64,000 nucleotides of DNA from Hymenobacter cellulosivorans (lineage in GTDB: Bacteria > Bacteroidota > Bacteroidia > Cytophagales > Hymenobacteraceae), in assembly GCF_022919135.1 (NCBI RefSeq), contig NZ_CP095049.1, positions 682,001 to 746,000 on the forward strand. Reading direction: 5' to 3'. This document shows positions 33,930 to 53,796 of this stretch, in pieces. Each line of letters begins with the position of its first letter. The stretch's first letter is position 1. The position numbers and the translations under genes are program-made. Under the pieces are notes generated by a model. The model made no database searches and was not told the DNA's origin. It was given only the letters and a program-made list of their open reading frames with translations.

Positions 33930-34856
33930 TTACACTTCGGCCAGAACCGGCTCACTCAGCTCCCGGCTGTAGCCCACGAAGCTTTCCAGCAGTTGGTGTG
34001 GCACGTTGCGCAGGCACGAGGGCGCCGCGGCCAGGAAGGCTGCGGCCGCGGCCCGGAAATCGGCGTACTGCTTCTGGTAGAACAGCTGCACGACCAGCAG
34101 CCAGTTCTGCAAAAAACCCTCTTGTGGCTCCCGCAGCACAAAGTCCTTGGCCGCCGCCAGAATCGGGGTGATAAATCCTTCGCTGTCTTGCACAAACGAC
34201 TCAGCATCGGCACCTTTTTGCAGGTTGGTAAGCGTTTCGCACAGCATCAGAGCCAGCAGCGAATAGCGCATCTGAATCAGGTCCGCGTTGTAGGTACTCA
34301 CGTAGTTGCGGTTCAAATCGGTGAGGACGTTGGCCCGCCCCGTCATCAGGAAGCAGATGGAATCCGACAGAATTTCGAATCCCCGCTCGGGCTGCTGCAA
34401 ACCGAAATAGACCTTGGCCAGGTTGTGGTACTGCGATACCCGGTCGAACAACAGGAACTCGAAGCCATTGGCTTCCAGGGTGATGTTGTTGTCCAGCGCG
34501 TTGTGCACCAGGCGAATGGCCTCCGTAGGGTTACCGGTCCGGTAGTGGTAAAACGACTTGGAACGGTCGTAGATATTCGACAGAAATAGCCTTAGAACGG
34601 GCTTCTCAGCAGGTATTGCAGCAACATATTTCTCTCCACGCTCAAAAAGATGTCGAGCCATGTGGAGTCGGCGGCCGCCCGACTCGGCTGCTCCGTCGGC
34701 GAAGAGCTTAGAAACAATGAACAGAGTTTGTCGATCATGAGGAGGTAGAATACGGTTTAGAGCCTCGGTATAAACTTTTATATAGGTGTTGGTTTCAATC
34801 AGCTGACTGCGGTTCCACTTCATCTTAGCGGATACCGGCTTGTTGGTAGTGGCCAT
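33930..34856 (-). CDS. helical-repeat protein, last gene of the peptide cluster
   Basis: 308 aa, soluble, all-helical by pattern (Leu/Ala/Tyr-rich amphipathic segments such as LFDRVSQYHNLAKVYFGLQQPERGFEIL, a TPR-like pair). There is no signal peptide and no catalytic motif. Its start lies 4 bp after the stop codon of the SPASM gene, so the two are translationally linked. In RiPP systems such helical proteins often act as scaffolds or partner proteins for maturases; that role is inference. It could also be a regulator or immunity protein. Confidence 0.75.
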   Translation of the reverse strand: MATTNKPVSAKMKWNRSQLIETNTYIKVYTEALNRILPPHDRQTLFIVSKLFADGAAESGGRRLHMARHLFERGEKYVAAIPAEKPVLRLFLSNIYDRSKSFYHYRTGNPTEAIRLVHNALDNNITLEANGFEFLLFDRVSQYHNLAKVYFGLQQPERGFEILSDSICFLMTGRANVLTDLNRNYVSTYNADLIQMRYSLLALMLCETLTNLQKGADAESFVQDSEGFITPILAAAKDFVLREPQEGFLQNWLLVVQLFYQKQYADFRAAAAAFLAAAPSCLRNVPHQLLESFVGYSRELSEPVLAEV

Positions 34857-34860
34857 ACTA

Positions 34861-36051
34861 TCAGGATCTAACGAGGTTATATTTCAGCTCTACCTTCTTC
34901 ATAAAGTTCTGCACGAAAGCCGGGCAGTCGTGGTCGTGGGTGCTGCTCTTATCGGGCCGGCCACCGCACATGGGCAGATAAATACACGACGAGCAGCTGA
35001 TCTGGTTGGCGCGCAGCAAGTCGCTGATACTTGCGTCGTAGAACTTGCGGGCGGCCAGGGTTTCGGCCGTATCCAGCTCCAGCGGAGGGTGGTCCAGGGT
35101 CAGCGCGGCGGCTGGCGTTTCGGCCCGGTCGCGGTACAGCTGCCCGGTGTGGAAGTAGGTATTGGTCGGGGCCGGCAGCAGGTTCAGGCACACGTTCCGC
35201 GTCCCAACCGCGTTGAGCCACGCCAGTTCCTGCTGCGCAGCTTCTTCCGCCCCTGCCACTTCTGCCGGGGGCAATAGCTGCACATACAGGTCGGCGCCCA
35301 GCGCGTGCTTGAGCTGTTGAAACTCGTTGACAATCTCCACTACTTTCGTGGTAGCACTCGTCGTCAGCAAATGAATATTGACCGGGGCCGTGGGCTGGCC
35401 AGCCATGGGGCCCTGCAGGGCCCGCAGCTCCTGAAACACTAGCGGCACGTGGGCCTGCTCCACCGGCAACACCAATGAAACCTTGGTCACGCGGGCCTTG
35501 AGCACCCCGGCAAACACCGGCTCGGCAGCGGCATTCCCAGCGCCCAGACTCACTAGTTGAAACTCTTTCTGCAGCTTGGCCACCAGCGGAGCATGGTCTA
35601 GAAAGGCACTCAGCCAGTGAATCCGCTGCAGGCCCGCGGCCACCGAAGGACCGGCTACAATAAGCACCAGCTTCTTCTTCGAGGCCGCCGCGTGTTGGCT
35701 TAGCAGGTCGGTCAGGGTTTGCCGGAGCTGTTCGTCCAAGGCCGCCGTCGAGCCTAGGTATACGGTCAGCTCGGCACCACTTGTATCGAGGGCCATCAGC
35801 TGGTTGCGGGTAATTATTTCCTCCAACTCATCTTCGTCCTCGGGCACAATCAACTCGTGGTACATCAGTACGTTGAACAGATTGTCGGGAATAGCCGTGA
35901 AGTTACCCTCCTGAATCAGTGACCAGACGTAGTTGGAAATGGTAATGCCCATCCCCTTTCGCGTCGAGAAAAGTATGCGCTTGGACGTTAGGGTTTCCTC
36001 CGCGTCGAGGGCCCCGGATAGCAGCGCGTATCTGGATTTTTTTAAATTCAT
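34861..36051 (-). CDS. SPASM-domain protein lacking the radical SAM motif
   Basis: 396 aa. Residues about 1-85 resemble the N-terminal module of the neighbouring radical SAM enzyme (ILFSTRKGMGITISNYVWSLI; LIVPEDEDELEEII). The middle looks like an alpha/beta barrel but has no CX3CX2C. The C-terminus keeps a SPASM-type cluster motif, C353-SS-C356-IYLPM-C362-GG, then C376, missing one of the usual Cys. This recalls the SPASM maturases of grasp-with-spasm systems, which also lack the radical SAM motif, but no ATP-grasp gene is present here. Likely roles are precursor binding or an electron-transfer partner to the true radical SAM protein at 37433. Confidence 0.75.
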   Translation of the reverse strand: MNLKKSRYALLSGALDAEETLTSKRILFSTRKGMGITISNYVWSLIQEGNFTAIPDNLFNVLMYHELIVPEDEDELEEIITRNQLMALDTSGAELTVYLGSTAALDEQLRQTLTDLLSQHAAASKKKLVLIVAGPSVAAGLQRIHWLSAFLDHAPLVAKLQKEFQLVSLGAGNAAAEPVFAGVLKARVTKVSLVLPVEQAHVPLVFQELRALQGPMAGQPTAPVNIHLLTTSATTKVVEIVNEFQQLKHALGADLYVQLLPPAEVAGAEEAAQQELAWLNAVGTRNVCLNLLPAPTNTYFHTGQLYRDRAETPAAALTLDHPPLELDTAETLAARKFYDASISDLLRANQISCSSCIYLPMCGGRPDKSSTHDHDCPAFVQNFMKKVELKYNLVRS

Positions 36052-36123: not shown

Positions 36124-37323
36124 CTACAGGGCAGGATTCCAGGTTACTTGCAGCTTCACCGACGAGGGGCCACGTTGCACGTAGGGTGCTGTGCGCCAAA
36201 CAGTGCCGCCGTTTACGGGTGCGTAAGCCGTGGTGCGGGCAATGAACTTGCTCAGGGCGGTACCGGCCTGCATGTGGGCCAGGCGGGCGCCAATGCAGCG
36301 GTAAGCGCCCGTGCCATAGCTCAGGTGAGCCGGCTTGCGGGTCAGGTCCAGACCATCGGGGTTGGTAAACACGCTGGGGTCCCGATTGGCGGCGCCTACG
36401 CAAATCAGGATCTGGCTACCGGCAGCAATGGTTTTGTTGCCCAGCGGAATCGGGCCCTTGGCAAACAGCAGGAAAAACTGCACTGGACTGTCGTAGCGCA
36501 GCAGTTCGTCCACGCACTCATACACCCGGGCTGGCTGTTCGCGCAAAGTGGCCTGCTCGGCCTGGTGCTTGTCCAGGGCTAGAATGGCATTGCCCAGGAA
36601 GTTCATCATGTTGTCGTGGCCCGCGTAGAACAGCAGGATCAGCATCGACAGAATAAACGACTCATCTTCCTCTTCCCGCCGGCAGGCATCAATCAGGGCG
36701 CTACACAGGTCGTCGCCGGGATTAGCCTTCTTCTGCTCGATAAACGCGCGCAGAAAGCTCAGAAACAACCCACCGGCGCCCGTCGCCACGGGGTTGTAAA
36801 TCAGGCCCAGATACATGCCGTCCAGTTCGGCCACCGTTTCGCTCAGTCCCGGAATGTCCTCTTCGGGAATACCAATGATGCGGCTGATAGTTTCGAACGT
36901 CAGCGGGTGGGCGTAGTCCCGGATAAAGTCAATTTCTTCTTTGCCCACGAGCTTATCCAGCAGCTTATCAGCCTGCTCCTGCATGGCTTTGCCATCGAAC
37001 TTCAGGTTTTTACCGGCCAGCGCGTGCATCACGTTCTTACGGTACGGCAGGCCGCTGTCGGGCGCAAAAGCGAATAGCGTCTTGGCCACGGCACTTTTGC
37101 CGGAAAACAAAATAGCCTGCGTCTCAGAATCCTGGCCCCAGTGGGAGCACAACGGATTCTGCAGCAACGATATGGCATCCTGATACCCGGTAATCACCCA
37201 CTGCGTCGGCGACACCCGGTAAATTGGATTTTCCTTTCTTACTTTATGGTAGGCCGGATACGGGTCAACCGTGGGAATGGGCATAGGGGCGCCTACCAGG
37301 AACGAGGATGCTTTCGTGTTCAT
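36124..37323 (-). CDS. cytochrome P450
   Basis: 399 aa, soluble class I bacterial P450. Heme-binding loop LSYGTGAYRCIG (Cys343 as axial ligand), K-helix ELLR in ECVDELLRYDSP, and I-helix LLFYAGHDNMMNFLG. In the I-helix the usual acid-threonine pair (D/E-T) that handles oxygen protonation reads D-N, so the Thr is replaced. Such changes occur in P450s that do unusual chemistry. Redox partners are not encoded nearby. Position between the radical SAM gene and the SPASM gene makes it a probable tailoring oxidase for the peptide or its terpenoid part. Confidence 0.92.
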   Translation of the reverse strand: MNTKASSFLVGAPMPIPTVDPYPAYHKVRKENPIYRVSPTQWVITGYQDAISLLQNPLCSHWGQDSETQAILFSGKSAVAKTLFAFAPDSGLPYRKNVMHALAGKNLKFDGKAMQEQADKLLDKLVGKEEIDFIRDYAHPLTFETISRIIGIPEEDIPGLSETVAELDGMYLGLIYNPVATGAGGLFLSFLRAFIEQKKANPGDDLCSALIDACRREEEDESFILSMLILLFYAGHDNMMNFLGNAILALDKHQAEQATLREQPARVYECVDELLRYDSPVQFFLLFAKGPIPLGNKTIAAGSQILICVGAANRDPSVFTNPDGLDLTRKPAHLSYGTGAYRCIGARLAHMQAGTALSKFIARTTAYAPVNGGTVWRTAPYVQRGPSSVKLQVTWNPAL

Positions 37324-37432: not shown

Positions 37433-38842
37433 TTAGCTGTAGCGCACGAACTCCTCTTCCGAGAAGGCGTTTTCGAAGGCGGTCAGCACCTCATCCAGCT
37501 CGGCTGCGGGAGTAGTAGCCAGCAAGTACTTAAACTCAATTTCCTTGCGGATATTAAACTTATACGGCGGGCAGGCCGGAATTCCTTCCACCCACGACTT
37601 CGGGCAGCTACCACCGCAGATAGGCAGCAGCCGGCAGCCATGGCACGGGTACTTGTCCGTGTCGCGCACGATGCTGTACCAGTCGTTGTGGGGCTTATTA
37701 TTAAACGTTTTGAACGTATCCTGCTGCAGAGTACCCAGCTTATAGTCTTTGTCTTCATAGTACTCAGAATAGGATACTTCCGTGCAATTGAAGATGTTGC
37801 CGAAGGCGTCGTATAGCTCGCCTTTGCCGCCGGTAGCCATGCAGGTATTCTTCTTGCGCTTGTGCAGGGCCGTTTGGAAAGGATAGCCCAGCTTTACCTG
37901 CAGAATTTCCCACTGCAGCTTCATGCGCGAAAACTGCTCCTTAGTCAACGACTTGGTCTGAGCATCGTTGCCGCCCCAGGAGTAAATCCCGATGAAGTAC
38001 AGGTCGTGAATGCGGCGGTGCAGGTTGTCGTCGGCAATCAGGCGAATGAGCGGCTCCACGCCTTCCACGTTGTTGATATCCACATTGCAGCGGATAATCA
38101 TGCGGGTTTTGGCGGGGTCGTAATCGGCGCTGGAAACGATGCGCTTAATGTTCTGATAAATAATCTTAAACGAAGGTCCGCCCGCCTTCGTGAAACGGTG
38201 ACTATCGTGGTACTCCTCGGCTCCATCCAGAGTAATTTCGAACGTATCCACGTGGAGTTCCTGCACCAGCTCGGCAAAGATATTTTCCTTCAAACTCAGC
38301 CCGTTGGTCACAATCTTACCACCGATATGCACACTCGGGTCGGCGATACGGGCAGTGAGTCGGCGGTAGATGGCCCGCATCTGGGGCAGACCCATCAGAG
38401 GCTCGGCTCCAAACCAGCCGATATAAATTTTCTTGTAGTCGCCTTTTACAAACTTGTCGTAAATGCGCTCCACGAGCTTATCAACCAGTTCGTCGGAGAT
38501 GCTGCTTTTTACATGTTGCTGCCCGCAGTAATAGCAGCCGAGCTGACACATGGCGCTCGGCTGAATTACTTCGTTGAGCTGGCCTTGCTCCGTCTCGCCG
38601 AAATCGATGTTTTCGTTGATGACACTGGCTAGCTCATCTTCCTCGGCCGGCACCAGAATGCCGGTCTTGATCAGTTTTTCCTGAATATGTACTGGGATGC
38701 TGCCCGCCAGGCCGTTCTGCAAAAAGTCGTGGCACAGGCTGCTGAGTGGCACTACATGCCCAGTGCGGGTCGAATAAGCCAATCTGTTGTTCTTACCATC
38801 GATTGGATTCGTGATTATGGTATAATAGGAAAGCTTATACAT
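37433..38842 (-). CDS. radical SAM/SPASM peptide maturase
   Basis: 469 aa from ATG 38842; a TTG three codons upstream is possible. Residues 1-80 form an N-terminal module similar to that of the SPASM protein at 34861 and may bind the leader. The radical SAM motif is C99-QLG-C103-YY-C106. The SPASM domain is complete: C334, G-x4-C353, then C400-x2-C403-x5-C409-x3-C413 and C424, enough for two auxiliary [4Fe-4S] clusters. Such enzymes make thioether, C-C or C-O links or epimerise residues in RiPP precursors; the Cys-rich core motif CW is a natural target. It lies 48 bp after the M50 gene. Confidence 0.93.
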   Translation of the reverse strand: MYKLSYYTIITNPIDGKNNRLAYSTRTGHVVPLSSLCHDFLQNGLAGSIPVHIQEKLIKTGILVPAEEDELASVINENIDFGETEQGQLNEVIQPSAMCQLGCYYCGQQHVKSSISDELVDKLVERIYDKFVKGDYKKIYIGWFGAEPLMGLPQMRAIYRRLTARIADPSVHIGGKIVTNGLSLKENIFAELVQELHVDTFEITLDGAEEYHDSHRFTKAGGPSFKIIYQNIKRIVSSADYDPAKTRMIIRCNVDINNVEGVEPLIRLIADDNLHRRIHDLYFIGIYSWGGNDAQTKSLTKEQFSRMKLQWEILQVKLGYPFQTALHKRKKNTCMATGGKGELYDAFGNIFNCTEVSYSEYYEDKDYKLGTLQQDTFKTFNNKPHNDWYSIVRDTDKYPCHGCRLLPICGGSCPKSWVEGIPACPPYKFNIRKEIEFKYLLATTPAAELDEVLTAFENAFSEEEFVRYS

Positions 38843-38890
38843 ATAGTACAATACATAATAGTTAATAAAATAATCCTAAAACTTTCTTAC

Positions 38891-40147
38891 TCAAGCACCG
38901 ACAGCTACTGCCTCGGGGTGGGCCGGAGCCCGGTTAGCAAAATATTTATCCTTGACGCCGCCGATAATCGACTTAATCAACATATAGTAGAAGACGAAAG
39001 GTATAAATAATTTTGCAATGTTGGTCTTGATCCACAAAAAATCTACTTGCTGAAAGTCAAATAGCAGTCCGTGGAGGAAAGAATACAGATTAAGTGGGAA
39101 ATTAAGCAGGGAGTGGTGGTTGAAAAACAGCATGTATCCGGCAAAGGCAATGAAGGCGCCGGCGGATACAAAACCGTAGACCGTTAGAAAGAGGGCGCGC
39201 CGGCTGTGGTCCCAGTTTTTGTTGATGCCGATGCACATGCCGAAGAACTTGCCCAGGGCCGTCATCGACTTGCCTTTCAGGTTGGAGATGTTCAGCGCGT
39301 CGCTTAGGGCCCAGTAGCCGTCGTAGCGCAGCAACGGGTTGAGATTGGCAGCAATAGAGATGCCGATGACGAAGGAAACGTAGAGCAGAGACTTTTCGTG
39401 GGTAAAGTAGAAGGCCACGGTCAGCAGCACGCACATCAGCAGCTGCATGTAGATACCGCCGAAGTCCACAATCAGGCGCTCGTGGCGCTTGAGGCGCCAG
39501 GTGTCGGTTACGTCGGCGTAGAACACGGGCGTGAAGGCGTAGAAGCCGAAACCAATGGCCCCGCTGTTGGCTCCAAACCGCTCACAGGCAGCCGCATGCC
39601 CAAACTCGTGCAGCAGCAGGCTCAGGTAGACCACCGAAATCAATACGCCCAACAGTTTGGGGTTGGAATCGTGGTAAATGGCCTGGATGTCGATGTTGAG
39701 CGCGAAGTTAGCGGCCAGAAACAGTAAGCTGGCGACGAACAAGACCACAAACAGCTTGACGTTGAACAGAAACGTCAGAAAGGGCGTGACCTTTCGAACT
39801 ACTGCGGCCGGCAGCAGCGTCACGCGCAGCTTCAGGTACTCGTCCTGGGCCTTGATTCGGTCCAGGTTATCGGTATCGAAGATGCCGTAGCCCACCAGCT
39901 GCTTGTTGAAGATGGTCACGATATCCTCCACCGAGAAGTTGACTTCGTTGGCGCGGTTGAAGGCGTAGGTGATATCCTCGATGTTGCGGTTGCCGTCAAT
40001 CTGCTCCAGTAGGCTCTTGGTCAGCTGGTTGACATTGAGCTTGATGGGCGTAATTCCGTCGATGCAGAGCACGTAGGTGTTCTTGTCGAACTGGACGTAG
40101 GTGTACTGCTCGGCTAGCTGGGGCACGTATTCCTTACTAATTTCCAT
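38891..40147 (-). CDS. M50 membrane metalloprotease with PqqD-like N-terminal domain
   Basis: 418 aa. Residues about 15-95 match a PqqD-like peptide-recognition element (winged helix: YVLCIDGITPIKLNVNQLTKSLLEQIDGNRNIEDI, then a second helix pair and GYGIF). It is followed by six or seven transmembrane segments with the site-2-protease zinc motif H180-E-F-G-H184 and the third ligand Asp276 in NPLLRYDGYW. The same fold is found in YydH-like proteins of peptide clusters. It probably recognises the precursor leader and cuts it at the membrane, but could instead act in immunity or signalling. Its start overlaps the end of the cyclase gene by 11 bp. Confidence 0.88.
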   Translation of the reverse strand: MEISKEYVPQLAEQYTYVQFDKNTYVLCIDGITPIKLNVNQLTKSLLEQIDGNRNIEDITYAFNRANEVNFSVEDIVTIFNKQLVGYGIFDTDNLDRIKAQDEYLKLRVTLLPAAVVRKVTPFLTFLFNVKLFVVLFVASLLFLAANFALNIDIQAIYHDSNPKLLGVLISVVYLSLLLHEFGHAAACERFGANSGAIGFGFYAFTPVFYADVTDTWRLKRHERLIVDFGGIYMQLLMCVLLTVAFYFTHEKSLLYVSFVIGISIAANLNPLLRYDGYWALSDALNISNLKGKSMTALGKFFGMCIGINKNWDHSRRALFLTVYGFVSAGAFIAFAGYMLFFNHHSLLNFPLNLYSFLHGLLFDFQQVDFLWIKTNIAKLFIPFVFYYMLIKSIIGGVKDKYFANRAPAHPEAVAVGA

Positions 40148-42152
40148 AAGTGGCGGTATCTAATTGGTGGTAGCGCTGCAGGGCCCGAAGCGAAACCGCA
40201 GTAGAAAACAGGTTGGCAACTTCGCCGGTAATGGAGTTGCCGCCGCCCGCTTTGTTGATTTTCAGGCGCTTTTTGGACTGGTACCAGTTCAGCGTCGTCG
40301 GATTGGGAATCACCAGGAAGTTGGAGCCGGTAAAGCCGCCGTCCTCGTACTGATTAGCCAGCAGCCAGTCTTTCATCCGGGCGGCGGGAGCCTGGTACTT
40401 GGCAAACAGCGCCGGCGAGGCGGCCAGCGTGTCGAGCACCATAGCTGTGTAGAACACGCTCTTCTGCTTGAGAATCTCGCAGGAGAAGCTGCCGTCCTTG
40501 TTTTGCTTGCTGATAATGTAGTCCAGGGCCTGGGCAATTTCAGCCGTGAAGTCCTCTTCGTCGCGCAGCATGCCCTGCACCACGAAGCAGGTGGGATACA
40601 GGTAGGAAGTCCACCAGTAGGGCTGCCAGATGCCTTTTTCCGACTTGTTTTCCAGGATGTAGGCCTTCAGCGCGGCCCGCTGCTCCTCAAAGCCACTGCG
40701 GTCTTCCAGATGGTTGAGGAAGTAGTACGCCAGGGCGCTGACGCAGATGTGGGAACTGGTCCAGCCGTTGAGCTGGGTCTTTTTCAGGCCCAGTTGGCTT
40801 ACCAGGTTAAAGGCCGTGTCGGAGTAGGTGTGGAAGCCACCGGTGCTGGTCTGGCCCTCAAACCAGGGTGCCAGGTAGGGCTGCACGGGCTGAGCGGCAT
40901 TGTTCAGAGCAAACAGTACGCAGGTGGTCGAGTCATAATCGAAAACCCAGTCGGTGTTGTAGCCCCAGAGGTGGTCTTGCTGGTTGCTGAGCAGGAACTC
41001 GGTAGCCTTGACCAGGTTGGGATTATCTTTTTCCAGGAAAGAAGCCACGAAGCCCGTCGACCAGACGTTGCTCAGGCCCTGCATGTTCGTTACCTCAAAC
41101 CACGACCCATCGGCGGTTTGCAGCCGTTCTATGTATTTCTTGGAGCGCGCAATGGCTTCGTTGATGCTCGTTTGATTACCGAATGTGGTGCTGATGAGCT
41201 TGTCCAGCAGCTTGTTAACCCGGTAGGCTTGCACGTTGACCTTGTAGAAATTTATCTTGTTTCTGACCAGGTCAATGATTTTGATGTAGTCCGTCAGCTC
41301 GTTGCGGTAGGGCTCGATTTCGTCGATGGCCTGCTGATAATAGCTCTTCGAGAGTGTCATCATCCGCTCGGCGGTTTCGGAAGTAAACAAGTACCGCTCC
41401 AGCACCTCCGGCGTGTAGTCTTTCAGCTTTTTGCCGTTCGACTTCAGCCAGGCTTGCAGCAGTATGTGGCCCAGGTTGTTTTTCTCGTACTGCAGGTCCT
41501 TTTTAAAGTCTTCCAGGTCGTCCTGGATGCAGCGGGCAATGGAAAAATAGTCGAGCGACTGGGTCAGGGCCCGGTGCAGCTCGGTTTGGCTGTTGTTCTT
41601 GGCGTAATAGGCATCGGCCCCCACTTTCGAGAAGGCGCACTTGTTGATGGCCAGCCGGGTGTAGGTATCGAAGCTCATCTGCACGTTGTACTCCTTGTCG
41701 AGCAGAATGCTGGCCAGAAACTCGTAGTTGCGCTGGTTCCACAGCACCCAGAAGGCATCCTTCTTACCGAAGTGCCTCGAGAGAATCTTCATCGACTCCT
41801 CGTGGTAGATGTGGGACTGTAGCAGCAGGTGGCTTTCCCGCTCGGCGCTGGCTTTGCCGGAAATATCGTCCTTGTCGTGCATGGCATCCAGGCACAGCAG
41901 GTACTTGAAGTAGAAGAAGCCGGAAACGCACACCTGGTGGACAAATAAGCTGTTCCGTTCCCCAAACGCTTTCCGGAACAAATACGGAAAGGTCAAGTAA
42001 TACTCCGAATCGAAGAAGGAATTAGGAAAAGCCAAATGCTTCAGACCACCTGGAAGTGAAACGTTGTCGTCCAAATAAGTTAAAAATGATTGGCGCAGAT
42101 TCTCAGTTGTTTTTTCCATATGAGAAAATCGCACTTTACTAATGTCAATCAT
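40137..42152 (-). CDS. isoprenyl-synthase-like plus terpene-cyclase-like fusion protein
   Basis: 671 aa from ATG 42152; ATG 42119 or TTG 42197 are alternatives. Residues about 40-310 are all-helical with two acid-rich sites at isoprenyl-synthase spacing: D89-x3-D93-x-D95-D96 and QD211-D212-LED215, with a KCAFSKVGADA segment between them that resembles the K-T helix of prenyl synthases. Residues about 330-670 form an alpha/alpha toroid of the squalene-hopene cyclase/prenyltransferase-beta type, with repeats such as LQTADGSWF, QNKDGSF and YEDGGF and a D405-Y-D407-ST motif at the class II DxDD position; the catalytic middle Asp is kept and the last Asp is Ser. The likely role is attaching or cyclising an isoprenoid on the precursor peptide. 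This is inferred, and a free terpene product is the alternative. Confidence 0.75.
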   Translation of the reverse strand: MIDISKVRFSHMEKTTENLRQSFLTYLDDNVSLPGGLKHLAFPNSFFDSEYYLTFPYLFRKAFGERNSLFVHQVCVSGFFYFKYLLCLDAMHDKDDISGKASAERESHLLLQSHIYHEESMKILSRHFGKKDAFWVLWNQRNYEFLASILLDKEYNVQMSFDTYTRLAINKCAFSKVGADAYYAKNNSQTELHRALTQSLDYFSIARCIQDDLEDFKKDLQYEKNNLGHILLQAWLKSNGKKLKDYTPEVLERYLFTSETAERMMTLSKSYYQQAIDEIEPYRNELTDYIKIIDLVRNKINFYKVNVQAYRVNKLLDKLISTTFGNQTSINEAIARSKKYIERLQTADGSWFEVTNMQGLSNVWSTGFVASFLEKDNPNLVKATEFLLSNQQDHLWGYNTDWVFDYDSTTCVLFALNNAAQPVQPYLAPWFEGQTSTGGFHTYSDTAFNLVSQLGLKKTQLNGWTSSHICVSALAYYFLNHLEDRSGFEEQRAALKAYILENKSEKGIWQPYWWTSYLYPTCFVVQGMLRDEEDFTAEIAQALDYIISKQNKDGSFSCEILKQKSVFYTAMVLDTLAASPALFAKYQAPAARMKDWLLANQYEDGGFTGSNFLVIPNPTTLNWYQSKKRLKINKAGGGNSITGEVANLFSTAVSLRALQRYHQLDTATYGN

Positions 42153-42330: not shown

Positions 42331-42498
42331 TTAACCGATCCAGCACACGCCGTTAGCGGTGGCGTCTACCAGCGCTTCGGCGGCAGCGGCCATCTCCAGA
42401 CGGTTTTCGAGTTCTTCCACGCTGAAGAGTTCGAGTTTCTGATCTTCCGACAGATCCGTGATTTTAGCGAGCAGCTGAGTTTGGTTAGCGTTGTTCAT
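42331..42498 (-). CDS. RiPP precursor peptide 5 (core NGVCWIG)
   Basis: 55 aa from ATG 42498. Leader: Asn/Gln-rich start MNNANQTQLL, acidic LSEDQKLELF, then SVEELENRLEM and an Ala-rich segment. C-terminus ANGVCWIG. It is the last of five tandem copies and differs from copy 2-4 mainly by an extra residue near the N-terminus. It has no signal peptide, no Gly-Gly cleavage motif and one Cys. The region upstream in the same frame is open but is spacer sequence shared by all units, not coding. Confidence 0.9.
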   Translation of the reverse strand: MNNANQTQLLAKITDLSEDQKLELFSVEELENRLEMAAAAEALVDATANGVCWIG

Positions 42499-42557: not shown

Positions 42558-42722
42558 CTAGCCGATCCAGCACACGCCGTTGGCGGTGGCGTCTACCAGC
42601 GCTTCGGCGGCGGCAGCCATTTCCAAGCGGTTTTCGAGTTCTTCCACGCTGAAGAGTTCGAGCTTCTGGTCTTCCGAGAGGTCGGTGATCTTAGACAGCA
42701 GTTGGGTTTGATCGTTGTTCAT
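42558..42722 (-). CDS. RiPP precursor peptide 4 (core NGVCWIG)
   Basis: 54 aa from ATG 42722. It differs from precursor 3 at a single residue (ALVDA instead of ALIDA). The conserved leader block LSEDQKLELFSVEELENR is intact, and the C-terminus is ANGVCWIG. Spacing to the next unit is 59 bp. The lone Cys next to Trp is the obvious modification site for the radical SAM and isoprenyl enzymes downstream. Confidence 0.9.
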   Translation of the reverse strand: MNNDQTQLLSKITDLSEDQKLELFSVEELENRLEMAAAAEALVDATANGVCWIG

Positions 42723-44019: not shown

Positions 44020-45204
44020 TTACTCTTCCCGTAGCGACAACGCTGGTCGGATGCCGGTGGCTAGCTGGCTGGGATACACGGCGCACAAGGTTACTAAGCC
44101 GTAAATGAGCCCCAACCCCAGGCCAATTGCCAGGAAGTACACGCTGGCCGGCACGCTAAATACCCCCAAAATCGGGAACTGAATGACGGCTAGCACGCCC
44201 AGGAGCAGGCCAAAAGTGGTGATGATCAGGATTTCGCCCAGGATCTGACTGCTGATGGAGCCAGCACTGGCGCCGATGGCTCGCCGCAAGCCTATTTCCA
44301 CCCGGCGGCGGCTAATGTTGAGCCACATCACCCCGAAGATGCCCAGGGCCACGTTCATCGTCAGGAATAGGCAGACGATACCGAGCATGGCGGGCAATGC
44401 CAGCAGCATCTTGAGCTTGGCCAAGCGCTGCTCACCTAGGGCCACAATGGTACTCGTCCAAGAGGGGCTAGTAGAGTGGATTTGCTCCCCAATCTGCTTT
44501 TTGAGGGCCGCACCCGACCCGGGCGCAACCCGCACAAGCAAGGTCGATAATGCTTCCGCGGTATCATTAGGACTCACGTAGAGCATGATGGCGGGTCGGG
44601 GCGTACTCAGCTCACCACCGGCACGGTAAGAGTTGGTAACGCCAACCACTTGCCACTCCTCTTTGAGGCCTCGAACCACCTTACCGATAGGCGACTCGTT
44701 AGGAAACAAAGCAGCCCGGGTTGCTTCCGTAATGACCACGGGGCGGCGGGTAGCGGCTTCATCGCGCCGGTCAAACCACCGGCCTTCAGCAATCTGCAGG
44801 TCCAGCACCTTCTGGAGCTCGGGGCCGGCAAAGTAGATGTCGGTGCTGGGCGACTGGCGCTTGTTGGCTCCTTCGCCGGCATCGAGCTTGGCGGTACCAT
44901 TGTTGAAGGAAAAAGGCGTGTTTTCGCCGCTGCGCGCCACGCTTGTCACGCCGGGCGTGGCTTTGAGGCGCTGCACTACTTGCTGCAAAGTGGCGTACCG
45001 CTGTTCACTTTGGGCGCCCTGCTTGAGGTTGATTTGCCAGACATCCTGGTACTCGAAGCCCAGGGGTGTCTGGTAGTTTTGCCGCATGTACATAATCAGG
45101 CTGGTCACGGCAAACACCGCAATGAAGGCCAGAAATATCTCGGAAACCAGGAGGCCATTGGCCCGGCGGCGGTTCCAAATGAGGGTAATGAGGTGGCGTA
45201 TCAT
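44020..45204 (-). CDS. MacB/FtsX-type ABC permease, second subunit
   Basis: 394 aa with the MacB topology: one N-terminal transmembrane helix, a periplasmic domain of about 220 residues, then three C-terminal helices (LLALPAMLGIVCLFLTMNVALGIFG; ILIITTFGLLLGVLAVIQF; VYFLAIGLGLGLIYGLVTL) with the FtsX signature RRVEIGLRRAIGAS. It overlaps the preceding permease gene by 4 bp, so the two form a heterodimer with the ATPase at 46484. Likely exports the mature peptide or takes periplasmic intermediates to the TolC-like channel. Confidence 0.9.
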   Translation of the reverse strand: MIRHLITLIWNRRRANGLLVSEIFLAFIAVFAVTSLIMYMRQNYQTPLGFEYQDVWQINLKQGAQSEQRYATLQQVVQRLKATPGVTSVARSGENTPFSFNNGTAKLDAGEGANKRQSPSTDIYFAGPELQKVLDLQIAEGRWFDRRDEAATRRPVVITEATRAALFPNESPIGKVVRGLKEEWQVVGVTNSYRAGGELSTPRPAIMLYVSPNDTAEALSTLLVRVAPGSGAALKKQIGEQIHSTSPSWTSTIVALGEQRLAKLKMLLALPAMLGIVCLFLTMNVALGIFGVMWLNISRRRVEIGLRRAIGASAGSISSQILGEILIITTFGLLLGVLAVIQFPILGVFSVPASVYFLAIGLGLGLIYGLVTLCAVYPSQLATGIRPALSLREE

Positions 45205-46454
45205 ACCTTGAAGTCTGCTTTTAGCGCCTGCACGACAGGCAGTTTTGACATTTTATAGGCTGGGTAAGCCCCCGACAGCGCCCCGAAGAATAGGGACGTC
45301 AGAATTCCGGCCCCGAAGACCCGGGCATTCAGCGCAAAGTCGGAGTAGGGCATAAACTGGCTGTAGTTGAGCAGCATCAGCGCGCCGGCGGCCAAGGCCA
45401 GGCCGAGCAGACCGCCCAGCAGCGTCAGGAAGACGTTTTCGAACAGGAACTGCGTCACCAGGGTGCGGGAAGTGGCTCCGAAGGCCTTGCGCACCCCGAT
45501 TTCGGAAGAGCGTTCCAGCATGCGGCTCACGTTCACGTTGACCAGGTTCAGAGCGGGCAGCAGCATGAAGAGCAGGGCCATTACCACCGAAACCTGCATC
45601 ATGCGCCCTACTCCGCCTTCTGCGTCGGCGTTGTTATTGAAGCGGGCCGTGAGCGAGGCCAGCAGGGTACGGGCATATGAGTGCACGGCTTTGTACTTTT
45701 TGGGGTCGGGTAAGGGCACTTGCTTGATGATGCGCTCATACTCCTGTTGAATGGTTGCCACGTCGGAAGAGGTTCGGGCTAAGGCAATAGCCTGGTAGTT
45801 GCCGATGTAGCCCGGGTCCCGCAGGTCCTCACTGGTCGTGGTAAGAGGCACCCAGAAGTCGGCGTAGGAGTTGGAGCGTGAAATCGGCACGTCGCGCACC
45901 AGGCCTACCACCCGGTAGTGCACAGCTCCAGCCTCGAACGTGCGCCCAATGACGTTTGTCGTGGTGCCGAAGTATTTGCGACTAGTGCTTTCGTTGATAA
46001 CAGCCACTAGGGCCGCTTCCCGTACTTCGGCGGCCGTGTAAGGCCGGCCGGCGACGAAGTCGAAATTCAGCACTTGCCAGAACTCGCTGTCGGTCAGCTT
46101 GCGGTCCAGCTTCAGGGTGCTTTCGCCCACGTAGGCTTCCACGTTATTGTAGTTGCCTTCACTCAGCGAAATCTTCTCCGGGGTGCGCATGGGCCGCACG
46201 TAGCGGTCGAGAAAGGAGTAGCCGATAAAGCCGTTGCTTTGCCCTCCCTCCTGCGCTACCAGTTGAATCCGGTTGATAAATACCAGCCGGTCGACCTGGG
46301 TTTCGGGCGTGTGCGGGCCCACGGTGTAGTCGAAGATGGCATAGAGTACCAGCAGCACCATCAGGGTCAGGCTGGTTCCGAAGAGGCTGATGAACGTGAA
46401 AAACCGCCGCCGCAGCAGCACCTTCCAGGCTATTTTTAGATAATTGAGCAACAT
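45201..46454 (-). CDS. MacB/FtsX-type ABC permease, first subunit
   Basis: 417 aa with the same plan as its partner at 44020: N-terminal helix (FFTFISLFGTSLTLMVLLVLYAIF), periplasmic MacB-like core, then helices around VMALLFMLLPALNLVNVNVSR with SSEIGVRKAFGAT and a final GAGILTSLFFGALSGAYPAYK. The C-terminal KLPVVQALK is typical of FtsX proteins. It lies 29 bp after the ATPase gene. Confidence 0.9.
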   Translation of the reverse strand: MLLNYLKIAWKVLLRRRFFTFISLFGTSLTLMVLLVLYAIFDYTVGPHTPETQVDRLVFINRIQLVAQEGGQSNGFIGYSFLDRYVRPMRTPEKISLSEGNYNNVEAYVGESTLKLDRKLTDSEFWQVLNFDFVAGRPYTAAEVREAALVAVINESTSRKYFGTTTNVIGRTFEAGAVHYRVVGLVRDVPISRSNSYADFWVPLTTTSEDLRDPGYIGNYQAIALARTSSDVATIQQEYERIIKQVPLPDPKKYKAVHSYARTLLASLTARFNNNADAEGGVGRMMQVSVVMALLFMLLPALNLVNVNVSRMLERSSEIGVRKAFGATSRTLVTQFLFENVFLTLLGGLLGLALAAGALMLLNYSQFMPYSDFALNARVFGAGILTSLFFGALSGAYPAYKMSKLPVVQALKADFKV

Positions 46455-46483: not shown

Positions 46484-47176
<693 letters not shown>

Positions 47177-47230: not shown

Positions 47231-48685
47231 CTACTGAGCCGCCAGGGGCTGTTGCTTTTCAAAATCGTAGAGCGTGAGGGCCCGTAGCCGGTAATACGCC
47301 ACCCACCGGGCCCGCAGGGCCGCTATGTAGCTGCGGCGGGCGCCGTCCTTGGCCTGGGTAGCCAGGCTCAGATCGGTGAGGCTGATGCGACCGAGCAGGT
47401 AGGTGGAGCGGGCTATGTCGTAGCGGCGTTGGGCCACTGAGTCGGCGTGCTGGGCCAGGCGGAGCTGTACCGTCAGCTGCTGCTGCTGCCCGGCTTCGGT
47501 CAGCACGCTTTGGGCAAAGCTGCGTTCTTCCTGGCTCACCGTATGCTCCACCTGCTCGCGGGTGAGCTTGGCGGTTTTGACCACAGCCTGCCGGTGGCCC
47601 CAATCGAGCAGGGGCATCGAGAAGGACAGCCTGACTTGCTGCTGATTACGCAGGTCTTGTAGGCTACTATTCAATTCGGGCGCCTGATTGACGTAGCCCA
47701 GATTGGCCGACAGCGTAGCTTGCATGCCGGTGGTGCCGCGGGCTTCGGCCACGTCGCGCTCGGCTTCGAGCAGGCGGCGCTGGAAGGCCAGGATGGCGCT
47801 GCGGTGCTGCCGGGCTTGTTCCAAAGCTACTTCCGGGGCTACCACGGGTTGTGGAGCCAGTGTGGGCACATCCAGCGCGGGAGCCGTAGCGAGGCCAGTG
47901 TAGGCCTGCAGCTCTACGGTGGCGTTCTGGGCGCTGAGCTGGGCCTGAATTTTGGCCTGCTGGGCATCGAGCAGGTTGAGCTCCAGCTGTAGCAGGTCGC
48001 TCTGAGAAAGGCGACCCAACCGGTAGCGCTCCTGCCCAATGCGCAGCAGTTCGTCGGTGGCCTGGGCATTCTGGCGGGCTACTTCGGCATTCACCTGTTG
48101 CAGCAGCACGTCAAAGTACAATTCAGTGGTGCGCTGGGCAATCTTTTCCCGCTCCTCTAAATACTTCCGCTGGCTTTCCTGGTAGCGCAGGGGCTCAATG
48201 CGGCGGTTCCAGTGAAGTTCGTTGAACTGACCGATAGGCTGTGTGAGGCCCAAAGTGAAAGGCTGGCTGTTGTAACGCTTGGCCTTACCGATAAAGTCAT
48301 CGTAGCGCAACACATCAGCCCCCACGATTACTTGGCCACCGGTCAGGCCAATATTCTGCTTCACGGCAAAGCCGACATTGGAATTATTGTTCTTGACTGA
48401 TTTGAATTCAATAGCGCCATCTTTCTGCACTACGGGGGTAATCGTGCTGCTGTAGTTAGGCAAATTGCCTTGCAGGCCAATCTGGGGCCGGTAGGTAGAG
48501 CGGTAGTCGCGCCACTGCCAGTAGCTGATTTCCCGGTCGGTATTGGCCTGTTTGCCAATAGCCGAGTGGTTGAGGGCCAGCGTAATCACCTCATCGAGGT
48601 TCAGAGGGCGGCTGGCATTTTGGGCCGTAAGGTCATGGAGCGGCAGCCCCAGCAGCGCCAGGAAGGGAAGGAAGCGGAGTTTCAT
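47231..48685 (-). CDS. TolC family outer-membrane efflux protein
   Basis: 484 aa with a signal peptide (LPFLALLGLPLHDLTAQ). Two repeats of long coiled helices (AQRTTELYFDVLLQQVNAEVARQNAQATDELLRIGQERYRLGRLSQSDLLQLELNLLDAQQ; and a second near 380-450 ending YLLGRISLTDLSLATQAKD) with the family's RY-x-G turn before each. It forms the outer-membrane channel for the ABC complex. It sits 12 bp after the adaptor gene and is cotranscribed with it. Confidence 0.93.
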   Translation of the reverse strand: MKLRFLPFLALLGLPLHDLTAQNASRPLNLDEVITLALNHSAIGKQANTDREISYWQWRDYRSTYRPQIGLQGNLPNYSSTITPVVQKDGAIEFKSVKNNNSNVGFAVKQNIGLTGGQVIVGADVLRYDDFIGKAKRYNSQPFTLGLTQPIGQFNELHWNRRIEPLRYQESQRKYLEEREKIAQRTTELYFDVLLQQVNAEVARQNAQATDELLRIGQERYRLGRLSQSDLLQLELNLLDAQQAKIQAQLSAQNATVELQAYTGLATAPALDVPTLAPQPVVAPEVALEQARQHRSAILAFQRRLLEAERDVAEARGTTGMQATLSANLGYVNQAPELNSSLQDLRNQQQVRLSFSMPLLDWGHRQAVVKTAKLTREQVEHTVSQEERSFAQSVLTEAGQQQQLTVQLRLAQHADSVAQRRYDIARSTYLLGRISLTDLSLATQAKDGARRSYIAALRARWVAYYRLRALTLYDFEKQQPLAAQ

Positions 48686-48697: not shown

Positions 48698-49945
48698 TTA
48701 TTCGGTGATACTCAACTCTGGCGTATCCAGATGGTCCTTCATGTCCGACACGATGATCTGCTCACCCTGCCGCAAGCCGCTCACAATCTGCACGTAGTCG
48801 AAGTTGCTGTCGCCAAACCGCACGGTGCGCTGGCTGGCCTTACCGTCTTTCACCACGAACACCGCCTGCTCCTGCCCGCCCTGGTAGAAGGCACCGTTCT
48901 TTACCCGGACCACATTGTGGTGACCTTTGGTAACCACGAATACATCCACGCGCAGGTTGGAGCGCAGTGCGGGGTGATGATCCTGCTCCAGTTGGGCGTA
49001 GAAGGTAACTACGCCTTTGTCCACGGCCGGGCTGATAGTGCTGATGGTCCCGCGCAGGTCAGTACCGTTGATGCGCACCACTACCGGGTCGCCCACGTGC
49101 AGGGCATCGGCATAGGCATCAGAAATAGTGGCCCGCACCTTGAAACTGCTCAGGTCGGCTACGCGGGCCAGCGGAGCCCCCTGCTCTACCGAGCCACCGA
49201 TGTCGTCATTTACCCAGGTCAGCACGCCGCCATCCTGGGCGCTGATGGTAGCCTGAGCCAGCTTACCGGCCAACTCAGATATAGCGCGATTTTGAATGGC
49301 CATGGTGTAGCCTAGCTCCCGGACGTCGGCGGCGTTGGAACGCTGTTGGGTCTGAATCTGACGGGCCAGACGGTCGGCCTCCAGCTGGGCTACTTTCAAG
49401 TTGAGCTCGGCTTGGCGTACGGTTTCGGCCGTGCCACCACCGATTTTGAGTAGTTGCTGCTCATCCCGCAGATTGGACTGCAGGCTACGCACCTTCGCTG
49501 CCTGCACTTCTACCTGAGTGCGCAAGTCGTTCAGGTCGCGCTCCAGGCCAAGCTGCAGCTGGGAGTTTTTGTTGCGGTTCCGCAATTGCTCATCATCCAG
49601 CTTAGCCAAGCTTGAGGCGGCAGCTTCTTTGTCTAATTCCAGGATAGTCTGGCCCGGTGCCAAATGCGCTCCAACTGCCACAGCCACCCGCCGAATTGTA
49701 CTTTGAATAGGACTGGTAATTACAGCCTCATGACCAGGAATTAGGACGCCGGCCGCCGTCAAGGAGGCTTCGACATCTCCTATTTCAACTGGAGCTGTCA
49801 GGATAACGCTACGCTGGATACTGGGCTTCAGTAACGAGCGAAAAGCCATTGTACCACTGAGCAGTATCACCACCAGAGCCAAGCTAAGCAACCACCGCCG
49901 CCGACTTTTCTGGCTTCTAACTTTGGGAGCTATTAGTCTGTCCAT
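48698..49945 (-). CDS. MacA/HlyD-type periplasmic adaptor
   Basis: 415 aa with one N-terminal transmembrane helix (LLSLALVVILLSGTMAF). It has a split lipoyl/biotinyl-like hairpin (SPIQSTIRRVAVAVGAHLAPGQTILELD and the matching AQDGGVLTWVNDDIGGSVEQGAPLARVADLS) flanking a long coiled coil, a beta-barrel domain and a membrane-proximal domain. It joins the MacB-like inner-membrane complex to the TolC-like channel. It is the first gene of the five-gene export set. Confidence 0.93.
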   Translation of the reverse strand: MDRLIAPKVRSQKSRRRWLLSLALVVILLSGTMAFRSLLKPSIQRSVILTAPVEIGDVEASLTAAGVLIPGHEAVITSPIQSTIRRVAVAVGAHLAPGQTILELDKEAAASSLAKLDDEQLRNRNKNSQLQLGLERDLNDLRTQVEVQAAKVRSLQSNLRDEQQLLKIGGGTAETVRQAELNLKVAQLEADRLARQIQTQQRSNAADVRELGYTMAIQNRAISELAGKLAQATISAQDGGVLTWVNDDIGGSVEQGAPLARVADLSSFKVRATISDAYADALHVGDPVVVRINGTDLRGTISTISPAVDKGVVTFYAQLEQDHHPALRSNLRVDVFVVTKGHHNVVRVKNGAFYQGGQEQAVFVVKDGKASQRTVRFGDSNFDYVQIVSGLRQGEQIIVSDMKDHLDTPELSITE

Positions 49946-50585: not shown

Positions 50586-51626
50586 TTAATCATATTCAAC
50601 TCTTGCAACCAAACCGGCTTGTAGTTGCTCAATGAGGCCAAAACGCCCTGCGGCAGCATCCAGAATGATGGTGTGGCGACGAAAAGGCTCATTGCCCAGC
50701 ATACCATCCATGCCCGAAGCGTGCATCAGGATATATTGCCACCACTTCATTCCCTGAATGTAGGTGACGCTGTGCAGGGGCACCGCTGTGGCTTCCAACT
50801 GCAAGGAGGCTTGGGTAGGAGCGGTATAAGCAGTAAGGGAGCGGCCCCAGGAATTCACGCTACTGGCCTCGACTTGCGCTCGTGCCTGAACCAGGTTTTT
50901 CCAATGCTTTTTACTGGTTATCAAGGCGTAGGCGCTGCTCCCTGAATCAAACAGCAACTCGTGCTGCTGCCCCAGCAGGACAGTACCCAGCAATACCCGG
51001 CGCTTACGAAACCGCAGGGGCGCAAAAACTGCCTGGTGGGCCAGAGCCGGGGGCAATTGAGGCAGTAGTTGAAACTGGCGTTGTGGATAGTCGAGCACGA
51101 GGACGTGGTTTTCCAGCACGTCGGCACCCAGCGTGCCGATAATGAAGGGTTCAGTGCTATCGGCGGGCAGTTCCTCCTTGCCATACGGCAGTACTCGGAT
51201 GTGGGCCGCTGAGAAAGTGGCTTGACCTAGCTGAAAGCTGAAAGCAAGCACCTGGCCATCGTGGACGCGCAGGACCGGCTCAGTAGCAGGATACGCGGCC
51301 TGCAAAGCACCCAGGGAGTGCGCGTAGAGCAGAGAAGAAGGTGCGCCGGTATCGAACTGCAGATAGCACGTGAGCGGGCAGCCGGGCAGCTGCACGGGCA
51401 CAAGCAGGGAAGCGTAAGGCTCCACCGGAACAGCATCGGTATCGGCCTGCCACTCGAAGGTGCACTGAGCCGGCAGGTTATGTACCGTAAGCTGATTTGG
51501 TGCCGGTTCGAACCGCTTACGCAGGTAATAATACCCACTCAGGCCACCCAGTACCAGCAGCGCCAGCAGCCCTGACCTATACTGTTTGGGGAAAGCACCA
51601 GGCGTAGTACGAACGGCAGCACACAT
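50586..51626 (-). CDS. membrane-anchored aspartic protease (retropepsin/pepsin-like)
   Basis: 346 aa with one transmembrane helix (about 18-34) and a large extracytoplasmic part. It has two copies of the aspartic protease motif, D92-TG in LQFDTGAPSS and D227-SG in LLFDSGSSAY, each followed by a hydrophobic-hydrophobic-Gly strand, as in a two-lobed enzyme or a fused retropepsin. Bacterial relatives are poorly characterised. Being next to the export operon of a peptide cluster with no C39 or subtilisin protease, it is a candidate for leader or product trimming in the periplasm; that is inference. Confidence 0.75.
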   Translation of the reverse strand: MCAAVRTTPGAFPKQYRSGLLALLVLGGLSGYYYLRKRFEPAPNQLTVHNLPAQCTFEWQADTDAVPVEPYASLLVPVQLPGCPLTCYLQFDTGAPSSLLYAHSLGALQAAYPATEPVLRVHDGQVLAFSFQLGQATFSAAHIRVLPYGKEELPADSTEPFIIGTLGADVLENHVLVLDYPQRQFQLLPQLPPALAHQAVFAPLRFRKRRVLLGTVLLGQQHELLFDSGSSAYALITSKKHWKNLVQARAQVEASSVNSWGRSLTAYTAPTQASLQLEATAVPLHSVTYIQGMKWWQYILMHASGMDGMLGNEPFRRHTIILDAAAGRFGLIEQLQAGLVARVEYD

Positions 51627-51742
51627 ATAGTTATTTTAAGGATAAGCAGCTCGCCCGTAGTTGTCAGGCAATAATGAGTAGTATAAAGTATAGTCGGTAG
51701 CTTGTAAGCCCCTGGGTCACTATCTGACGTTGAACTGTCGGT

Positions 51743-52606
51743 TTAGCTGGCCATAGCCGGCACGGCTACCAAGGCATTGCGCACATCTTCGAGCAGCCAC
51801 ATCGGCGTGCTAGTGGCCCCGCAGATACCGACCGACTGCCCAGGAGCGAACCACGATAAATCCAACTCATCGACTTTTGATATAAAGTGTGTGTTCGGAT
51901 TGGCCGCCTTGCAGACCTGGTAAAGGGCTTTGCCATTGCTGCTCTTGGTGCCCGATACAAAAATGATGTGGTCGAAGCGAATAGCAAAGTGCCGCAGGTC
52001 CTTGTCGCGGTTGCTGACCTGCCGACAGATGGTGTCGTTGGCCAGTACTGTGTAGCCGCGCTCCTCTAGTTCCTGCTTGATGCGATAAAAGCTGTCGGGA
52101 CTTTTGGTTGTTTGGCTATAGAGCGTAAGCTCTTGCGGTAGTGGGTGCTGCAAGAGCTGCTCCAAGTTCTCGAACACCACCGCGTGGCCCTGGGTCTGCC
52201 CCAGCAAGCCTTGCACTTCGGCGTGGCCGTGGGTGCCGTAGATAAAGATCTTATTCTGTTTGTCGTAGCTGGCCTTGATGCGGTTCTGCAACTTGAGTAC
52301 GACCGGACAGGAGGCATCAATCAGGGTCAGATTATTGTTCAGGGCAATGCGGTAGGTGCTGGGTGGCTCGCCGTGGGCCCGGATAAGTACCATTTCATTA
52401 TGCAGCTGGGCAAAAACGTCATAGGTGATGATGCGTAAACCCAGAGACTTGAGCCGCTCCACTTCTTCTTCGTTGTGCACGATGTCGCCTAGACAGTACA
52501 GATAGTCTTGGTCATCTAGTATTTCTTCGGCCATCTGAATGGCGTAAGTAACTCCAAAACAGAAGCCGGAGTCCTGGTCGATACTAACGGTAAGATTATG
52601 TGCCAT
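51743..52606 (-). CDS. ispH: 4-hydroxy-3-methylbut-2-enyl diphosphate reductase
   Basis: 287 aa. IspH is the last enzyme of the MEP pathway and makes IPP and DMAPP. The three cluster cysteines are C16 (SGFCFG), C100 (ASCPVV) and C194 (DTICRQVSNR); the catalytic Glu130 lies in HGHAEVQG, and the substrate loop SSNGKAL and TTKSP are present. A complete, functional-looking enzyme next to a peptide cluster that has an isoprenoid-handling protein hints at a dedicated precursor supply, though it may equally be the only chromosomal copy. Confidence 0.95.
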   Translation of the reverse strand: MAHNLTVSIDQDSGFCFGVTYAIQMAEEILDDQDYLYCLGDIVHNEEEVERLKSLGLRIITYDVFAQLHNEMVLIRAHGEPPSTYRIALNNNLTLIDASCPVVLKLQNRIKASYDKQNKIFIYGTHGHAEVQGLLGQTQGHAVVFENLEQLLQHPLPQELTLYSQTTKSPDSFYRIKQELEERGYTVLANDTICRQVSNRDKDLRHFAIRFDHIIFVSGTKSSNGKALYQVCKAANPNTHFISKVDELDLSWFAPGQSVGICGATSTPMWLLEDVRNALVAVPAMAS

Positions 52607-52983
52607 ATAAACGGGCTGAATAACGATATACAGGATAATTTTAAGCGCTAAACGGGCTTTCCGGCCAGCTGATAACCAGCATGCCAGGCCGTATAGATCT
52701 TATTTTAATAGAAGAAACGAATGAGTGGACAGCTGGCCGAAAAGCCAACTATCGGGCAACTACTTCGCGGGGAACAGTGGGCGTGAAATCACAGCAGGCT
52801 CTCATGCAGCCCAGGATATCAGCAACAGAAAAAAAGGAAACTACTGGTCAGTAGGTTGGGGTTGTGGGATAGATGAGAGTAACAATAGATTATATATAGT
52901 GCTGCAATATAAATTCTTTTTGCCAATTACTATAACCAACCTCAATAATTAATCTAAAGATCTGCTTCTCAAAACTTTATTTT
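52607..52983. other. 377-bp intergenic region, AT-rich at its far end
   Basis: Between ispH and the alpha/beta hydrolase gene. I see no supported gene; a plus-strand frame at 52725-52952 begins with GTG and has no family resemblance. 52870-52980 is AT-rich. Probably promoter for ispH. Confidence 0.45.
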
Positions 52984-53796
52984 TCAATTAACCCATAGTC
53001 TGCCGCCCGGCAGATAGGCCTCCAGGGCGTTGAGTGTTTGGGTAGGAGCACTTAGCTGCGGGCAGTGGCCACTGACGGGCAGCGTAACAAGCGTCGCATC
53101 GGGAATGGCTGCCAACAGAAACTCGCCAACCTCGGGCGGCGCAACCAGGTCTTCGGCGCACTGCACCAGCAGGCAGGGAATGCGCAGCCGGCCCACATCC
53201 CGGCGGTTATCGGAGAGGAAGGTAACGCGGGCAAACTGCCGGGCAATGGCGGGGTTGGTTTGACAGAAGCTATGAGTAAGCTCGGCGGTGAGTGTGGGAC
53301 GGTCGGGAGTGCCCATAATAAAGGGGGCGAAAGTATCGGCCCAACCTACGTAGTCGGTTTCCATAAACGCCAGCATGGCCTCCAGGTCGGGGCGGTCGAA
53401 GCCGCCGTAATACTCGGCGTCGTTGACGTAGCACGGCGACGGGCACAACAAGAGCAGCTTGCGGAAACGCTCGGGCGCAGCAATAGCCGCCAGCGTACCA
53501 ATCATGGCCCCGACGGAGTGGCCCACCAGGTAGATTTCGTCCCGACCCAGGTGGTCACAGATTTCCAGCACATCCTGGGCGTAACCCTCCAGGGAAGAAT
53601 ACTTAGCCGCATCATAAGCTGCCGCTACCGACAAGCCCGCGCCCACGTGGTCGAACAGCACCAGGGTAAAATGCTCGGCAAAGGCGGGCGTGAGGTAGCG
53701 CCAGATACTTTGGTCGCAGCCAAAGCCATTGACGAAAAGCAGAGTTCGGGGCCCGTTTCCGATTACGCGGACGTTATTGCGGCGCAGCACATTCAT
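52984..53796 (-). CDS. alpha/beta hydrolase (RsbQ-like)
   Basis: 270 aa, soluble. Nucleophile elbow VGHSVGAMIG with Ser94, catalytic His244 in SGHCPQLS, and acid in the AEDLVAPP loop; the oxyanion region is FVNGFGCDQSIW. Closest in pattern to RsbQ/KAI2-like hydrolases, which cut small lactone-like signals or support stress signalling. There is no partner PAS/phosphatase gene (rsbP) beside it. It could tailor or degrade the cluster product; it may also be unrelated. Confidence 0.85.
   Translation of the reverse strand: MNVLRRNNVRVIGNGPRTLLFVNGFGCDQSIWRYLTPAFAEHFTLVLFDHVGAGLSVAAAYDAAKYSSLEGYAQDVLEICDHLGRDEIYLVGHSVGAMIGTLAAIAAPERFRKLLLLCPSPCYVNDAEYYGGFDRPDLEAMLAFMETDYVGWADTFAPFIMGTPDRPTLTAELTHSFCQTNPAIARQFARVTFLSDNRRDVGRLRIPCLLVQCAEDLVAPPEVGEFLLAAIPDATLVTLPVSGHCPQLSAPTQTLNALEAYLPGGRLWVN

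Follow-up and report, generated by a model that had tools for sequence, protein, structure and literature searches.

The window analyzed here is a stretch of 64,000 nucleotides from Hymenobacter cellulosivorans (contig NZ_CP095049.1), and between positions 33930 and 53796 it holds a gene cluster that we consider quite likely to be a pathway for a ribosomally synthesized and post-translationally modified peptide (RiPP) working like the ChrPC type. A preliminary description of this DNA had proposed a ribosomal peptide with an attached isoprenoid group, and this proposal is well supported, both by the co-occurrence of a leader family with a fused prenyltransferase-cyclase protein (PC) and by a tryptophan that is nearly fixed in most precursors. 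The features on which the argument depends are as follows:

40137-42152, minus strand: PC protein, 671 amino acids, two fused domains
43229-43396, minus strand: precursor 1, 55 amino acids, leader ELENRLE, end CMCWVAS
43007-43171, minus strand: precursor 2, 54 amino acids, end CWIG
42782-42946, minus strand: precursor 3, 54 amino acids, end CWIG
42558-42722, minus strand: precursor 4, 54 amino acids, end CWIG
42331-42498, minus strand: precursor 5, 55 amino acids, end CWIG

The PC protein had been described as combining isoprenyl-synthase-like and terpene-cyclase-like domains, and we found both. The predicted model unites a trans-isoprenyl-diphosphate-synthase (trans-IDS) fold with a class II cyclase resembling MstE. 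The N-terminal domain (approximately residues 1-320) is a trans-IDS-like prenyltransferase with an all-helical, isoprenyl-synthase-like model; it keeps the aspartates of the first and second Asp-rich motifs (FARM and SARM; D89/D93, D211/D212/D215/D219), and the alpha-beta-beta-alpha barrel of the NctPC type was not found in it. The fused C-terminal domain (approximately residues 326-670) contains the acid motif of class II cyclases (D405-Y-D407-S-T) and is also squalene-hopene-cyclase-like.

We searched 395 genomes drawn from the phylum Bacteroidota, the window's own included, with a PC profile, and found that 38 genomes matched at E <= 0.001, 10 of which displayed a strong match to the N-terminal domain (E < 1e-90). 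A leader profile, built on loci found through PC (G071 and G284 gave no sequence to the model), matched 11 genomes in the same kind of draw (395 genomes), namely these 10 and G384. The co-occurrence of leader and cyclase-like protein, which had been suggested as a check, was accordingly observed in 10/10 strong-PC genomes, compared with 1/385 others, although single misses are possible because at most 3 and at most 17 candidates per genome were scored in the PC and leader scans, respectively. A scan of named genomes gave nine loci, including those of Chryseobacterium sp. ISL-6, a Saprospiraceae metagenome-assembled genome, Fulvivirga and three Allomuricauda; one of them (L065) is apparently a contig already present in G127, and another (L070) matches in the C-terminal domain alone. 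In the genus of genome G114, 7 of 150 genomes matched at E <= 1e-20. Matches to the C-terminal domain only (G105, L070 and a second G114 gene) were set aside as other proteins, as were the weaker N-domain matches of G448 and G230, near which no M50 or leader was found.

We then compared in detail 20 loci with PC or its N-terminal domain; those repeating L066 exactly or nearly so (L022, L065, L067, L068 and L069) were not counted, and G576, partial at a contig end, was left out. An M50 metalloprotease gene lies within 1.5 kb in 19/20 loci, the exception being the short contig L023, and leader-bearing precursors occur in 18/20. A radical SAM gene was found in 9/20 loci, a TolC-like gene in 2/20 and IspH in 1/20 (the window), but the flanks differ in length (8.7-21.9 kb, and L063 stops about 0.7 kb past its radical SAM gene), and a gene that seems to be missing from a locus may therefore lie beyond the stretch examined. 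In the two loci where a leader peptide was looked for and none was found, L031 (genome G003) and L119, an N-domain-only gene adjoins the M50 gene. The latter locus (L119:5902-8032) lies on a plasmid of Hymenobacter sp. DG01 where both genes are annotated as hypothetical, and its N-domain-only gene was the one weak match in a search of plasmid proteins; a search for DNA near to the G003 locus found nothing. We also observed permease and adaptor matches near PC in L026, carboxypeptidase-regulatory-like domain proteins near the PC genes of L026, L030, L062, L066 and L080, and weak TonB-plug matches near those of L030 and L062.

The five tandem precursor genes of the window, described earlier as having a leader and a Cys-Trp-containing end, are present; precursors 2 to 5 are alike and precursor 1 differs at its end. 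Their leader motif, FxVEELExRLE, is FxVEELExRxE for the family. From 38 leader-pattern rows, one of which was spurious and was removed, we obtained 37 family precursors. Tryptophan follows the leader motif at +3/+4 in 26/37 and at +7 in 1/37, is found at +18 to +20 in exactly the eight precursors of the window, G114 and ISL-6, and is missing from two, both of G284. Because tryptophan is nearly fixed in most precursors and 9/37 cores contain no cysteine, tryptophan is, from these sequences, the likeliest acceptor across the family, with cysteine optional. Computation establishes the folds and catalytic residues, the association of the leader with PC and M50 genes, and the conserved tryptophan.

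Two genomes carry leader peptides without tryptophan. At L030 (genome G284), a stand-alone N-domain gene and an M50 gene accompany two such peptides with 8 and 10 cysteines in the core, in which another residue may be the acceptor. The second genome, G384, has one such peptide (L116:9367-9504), FSVEKLEERYEM, and a search of about 9.4 kb around it found neither PC nor M50; it would be an orphan, or the leader serves a different purpose there.

By sequence comparison, the window, G114 and ISL-6 form a separate branch, with a moved tryptophan, an altered putative acceptor site and more predicted tailoring enzymes. The N-terminal domains of the three form one clade (support 100/100), next to which stands the Saprospiraceae protein (98/94). 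All eight branch precursors (five from the window, each with tryptophan, one from G114 and two from ISL-6) contain Cys-Trp, and this tryptophan is terminal or close to the C-terminal end (CWIG or CWVAS, CWLA, CW). Three residues before SARM, cysteine is found in these three PC proteins, as Cys208 in the window, and glutamine in the other 16 of 19. The spacing of this glutamine from SARM matches the PalQ Q197/D200 and Ord1 Q216A/D219A entries. Since the window PC lacks the conserved glutamine, we describe the cluster as working like ComQ, PalQ and ChrPC rather than as a plain member. Matches to the cytochrome P450, the SPASM-only protein and the TPR-like protein were found in 3/20 loci, the window, G114 and ISL-6 alone, and these share the gene order PC, M50, radical SAM, P450, SPASM-only, TPR. 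IspH, exporter ATPase and TolC had also been candidates for the ISL-6 and G114 clusters and were not borne out in the stretches examined.

These features, together with the structural model, suggest the following pathway. The five precursors would be recognized through their leader motif, and the N-terminal domain of PC would move a C10 to C20 prenyl group from its diphosphate to the tryptophan of the C-terminal Cys-Trp. In the fused C-terminal domain, as fold and motif indicate, the middle aspartate of DYDST would then protonate the chain, which would close into rings. Further bonds or oxygens might come from the radical SAM/SPASM enzyme and from the P450, the M50 protein would remove the leader, and the five-gene exporter would release the product, with the extra IspH boosting isoprenoid supply.

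Several observations weigh against this pathway. PalQ Q197, which is reported to contact the indole NH in a model (PMC10853753) and is thereby implicated in tryptophan recognition, is replaced by cysteine in the window branch, whose tryptophan also lies 14-17 residues farther from the leader than usual; for these two reasons tryptophan is less certain as the acceptor here than in the family. Glutamine at -3 of SARM is in turn not diagnostic, because it also appears in alignments of ordinary synthases. Nor does conservation of SARM prove activity, since PalQ with both SARM aspartates changed retained activity in an endpoint assay (PMC10853753). Finally, G284 combines an N-domain with leader peptides free of tryptophan, the G384 peptide stands apart from any PC or M50 gene found, and L031 and L119 pair N-domain with M50 in the absence of a detected leader peptide.

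We tentatively raise the possibility, on balance doubtful, that the window, G114 and ISL-6 represent a sub-class of terpenoid RiPPs in which the pocket remodeled from glutamine to cysteine puts a cyclized terpene on the C-terminal Cys-Trp, and the radical SAM enzyme and P450 tie cysteine, tryptophan and terpene into fused rings. If this were true, the product would be a ribosomal peptide with a peptide-terpene polycycle as its tail. We regard as rather unlikely the alternative that the branch acceptor is the cysteine beside the tryptophan (S-terpenylation), in which case the SARM-adjacent glutamine would have been lost because there is no indole to recognize. The presence of Cys-Trp in 8/8 branch precursors agrees with it, as does the replacement of glutamine by cysteine in exactly the 3/19 PC proteins of one clade. 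However, core cysteine is absent from 9/37 family precursors while tryptophan is absent from only 2/37, the characterized trans-IDS-like prenyltransferases all target tryptophan according to the review PMC13290415, and the role of the cysteine may rather be in the radical SAM reaction.

That the PC product is a free terpene or diphosphate, with an ordinary radical SAM RiPP cluster as a mere neighbor, is improbable. The N-terminal domain does retain the two Asp-rich motifs that ordinary isoprenyl synthases have, and an extra IspH is close by. However, leader-bearing precursors are found in 9/20 loci where tblastn with four queries found no radical SAM gene in the stretch examined, which indicates that the leader goes with PC and not with radical SAM, and the PC and M50 genes of the window share 11 bp. 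We give very little weight to a C-terminal domain acting on the peptide as a LanC-like alpha/alpha toroid, which would yield a plain cyclic peptide with a thioether or another link, although toroids of other enzymes, such as epimerases and farnesyltransferase beta, also match the domain model at lower rank.

The general chemistry of the ChrPC-like reading, which we prefer, namely a cyclized terpene on a RiPP tryptophan, is already known, and the earlier statement that no described family combines these parts does not hold. ChrPC and NctPC are fused prenyltransferase-cyclase RiPP maturases described in a 2026 review (PMC13290415) with reference to Hubrich et al. 2024: in ChrPC, the P domain attaches a prenyl chain from C10-C20 donors to an internal tryptophan and the C domain cyclizes that chain, and NctPC likewise performs tryptophan prenylation and cyclization, the latter through a fused MstE-like domain. 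As described there, ChrPC resembles the window PC in fusing the same two types of domain, in its RiPP substrate and in its tryptophan-bearing precursor; the window likewise has the precursor in the same cluster as PC. Relative to that description, the window branch differs in its distant C-terminal Cys-Trp, the change from glutamine to cysteine beside SARM, and the radical SAM, P450, SPASM-only and TPR genes; ChrPC, compared by description only, may fall inside or outside the branch. NctPC differs in that the P domain described is an alpha-beta-beta-alpha barrel, in contrast to the trans-IDS-like fold of the window. PalQ and ComQ share with the window an isoprenyl-synthase fold acting on a ribosomal peptide, and PalQ acts on a C-terminal tryptophan, the place at which ISL-6 precursors carry theirs; in the partial descriptions available they have no cyclase domain, and PalQ has Gln197 where the window has cysteine. 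The substrate of MstE, one of the monodomain class II cyclases (6sbb, 8pak, 8paj and 6ij1), is a prenylated dihydroxybenzoate according to PDB titles, whereas the window cyclase shares a polypeptide with a prenyltransferase domain and is encoded in a RiPP cluster. In a literature search with Hubrich et al. 2024 outside its coverage, no paper was found describing the added set of radical SAM, P450 and SPASM-only genes.

The remaining genes of the cluster are as follows:

33930-34856, minus strand: TPR-like protein, weak Pfam TPR match
34861-36051, minus strand: SPASM-only protein, CSSC..CGG SPASM-like end, no CxxxCxxC
36124-37323, minus strand: cytochrome P450, GAYRCIG
37433-38842, minus strand: radical SAM/SPASM maturase, CQLGCYYC
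38891-40147, minus strand: M50-type intramembrane metalloprotease, HEFGH and NLNPLLRYDG
44020-45204, minus strand: ABC exporter half permease (ADOP-like)
45201-46454, minus strand: ABC exporter half permease (ADOP/MacB-like)
46484-47176, minus strand: ABC exporter ATPase (LolD/DarD/MacB-like)
47231-48685, minus strand: TolC-like outer membrane protein
48698-49945, minus strand: periplasmic adaptor (RND mfp/DarC-like)
51743-52606, minus strand: IspH, one of three full-length genomic copies

The preliminary description had named a complete radical SAM/SPASM enzyme, a SPASM protein without the radical SAM motif, a P450, a five-gene ABC exporter and ispH, all of which are present, the last being real and an extra genome copy. 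It had also named an M50 protease with a PqqD-like domain; the protease is present, and its PqqD-like part is only weakly supported (NF002535, E 0.043, 13.6 bits compared with a cut-off of 101). The M50 protein is probably the leader-processing enzyme. Its nearest NCBIfam model is that of the daptide HExxH proteins (NF041824, 135.7 bits), and its score against YydH-LiaK is 70 bits; these systems, like the window, have an M50 metalloprotease in a RiPP cluster, and the window protein scores below the curated cut-offs of 300 and 225, respectively. The radical SAM enzyme is nearest to TIGR04463 (149.5 bits, below the cut-off of 525). The N-terminal 85 or so amino acids of the SPASM-only protein align with the N-terminus of the radical SAM enzyme itself, and its counterparts in G114 and ISL-6 (217 amino acids) are missing the SPASM part as well. 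Compared with L021 and L062, it looks like a decayed radical SAM copy with the N-terminus retained, and perhaps it is a peptide-binding helper. The counterpart of the TPR-like protein in ISL-6 is 36% identical over 169 amino acids, and the G114 match is split into two pieces in different frames. The window IspH, probably an isoprenoid-supply gene, is 78% identical to the second copy in the genome. Three full-length ispH genes were found in 0/40 other genomes of the same genus; G010 and G028 each have three matches, two of each being partial.

According to the open reading frame listing of the window, all cluster genes lie on the minus strand, as had been stated, but in blocks: the tight spacing described earlier is interrupted by a gap of 623 bp separating the precursors from the exporter, one of 640 bp from the exporter to an aspartic-protease-like gene, and one of 377 bp ahead of a hydrolase gene. 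The aspartic-protease-like gene (50586-51626, minus strand), between exporter and IspH, encodes two D(T/S)G-type motifs, which we take to resemble those of aspartic proteases, and has no Pfam match. The evidence for a GC island is equivocal: GC contents are 0.50-0.61 in cluster genes and 0.585-0.635 in large open reading frames elsewhere in the window, and the GC content drops to 0.459 at 42-44 kb. Glycoside hydrolases of families GH18, GH97 and GH64 flank the cluster on the plus strand (29382-31481, 54452-56599 and 57200-59428), two of the three with CBM6 and secretion-tail domains.

In a host sample of 59 genomes, the window's own included, the full PC and the window-type precursor were both confined to the window's own genome, and G003 and G035 displayed the N-domain match alone; among these genomes the cluster thus belongs to the accessory gene content. 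Research on ribosomal peptides with cyclized terpenes is still young. The leader family, in which FxVEELExRxE is followed by a nearly fixed tryptophan, is tied to the fused enzyme in many Bacteroidota and thus offers a search handle, and the window cluster unites radical SAM, P450 and terpene cyclase genes around one short peptide. In the window branch, a shift of the putative acceptor and a change of the residue implicated in tryptophan recognition occur together, a natural experiment that bears on how such enzymes choose their target.
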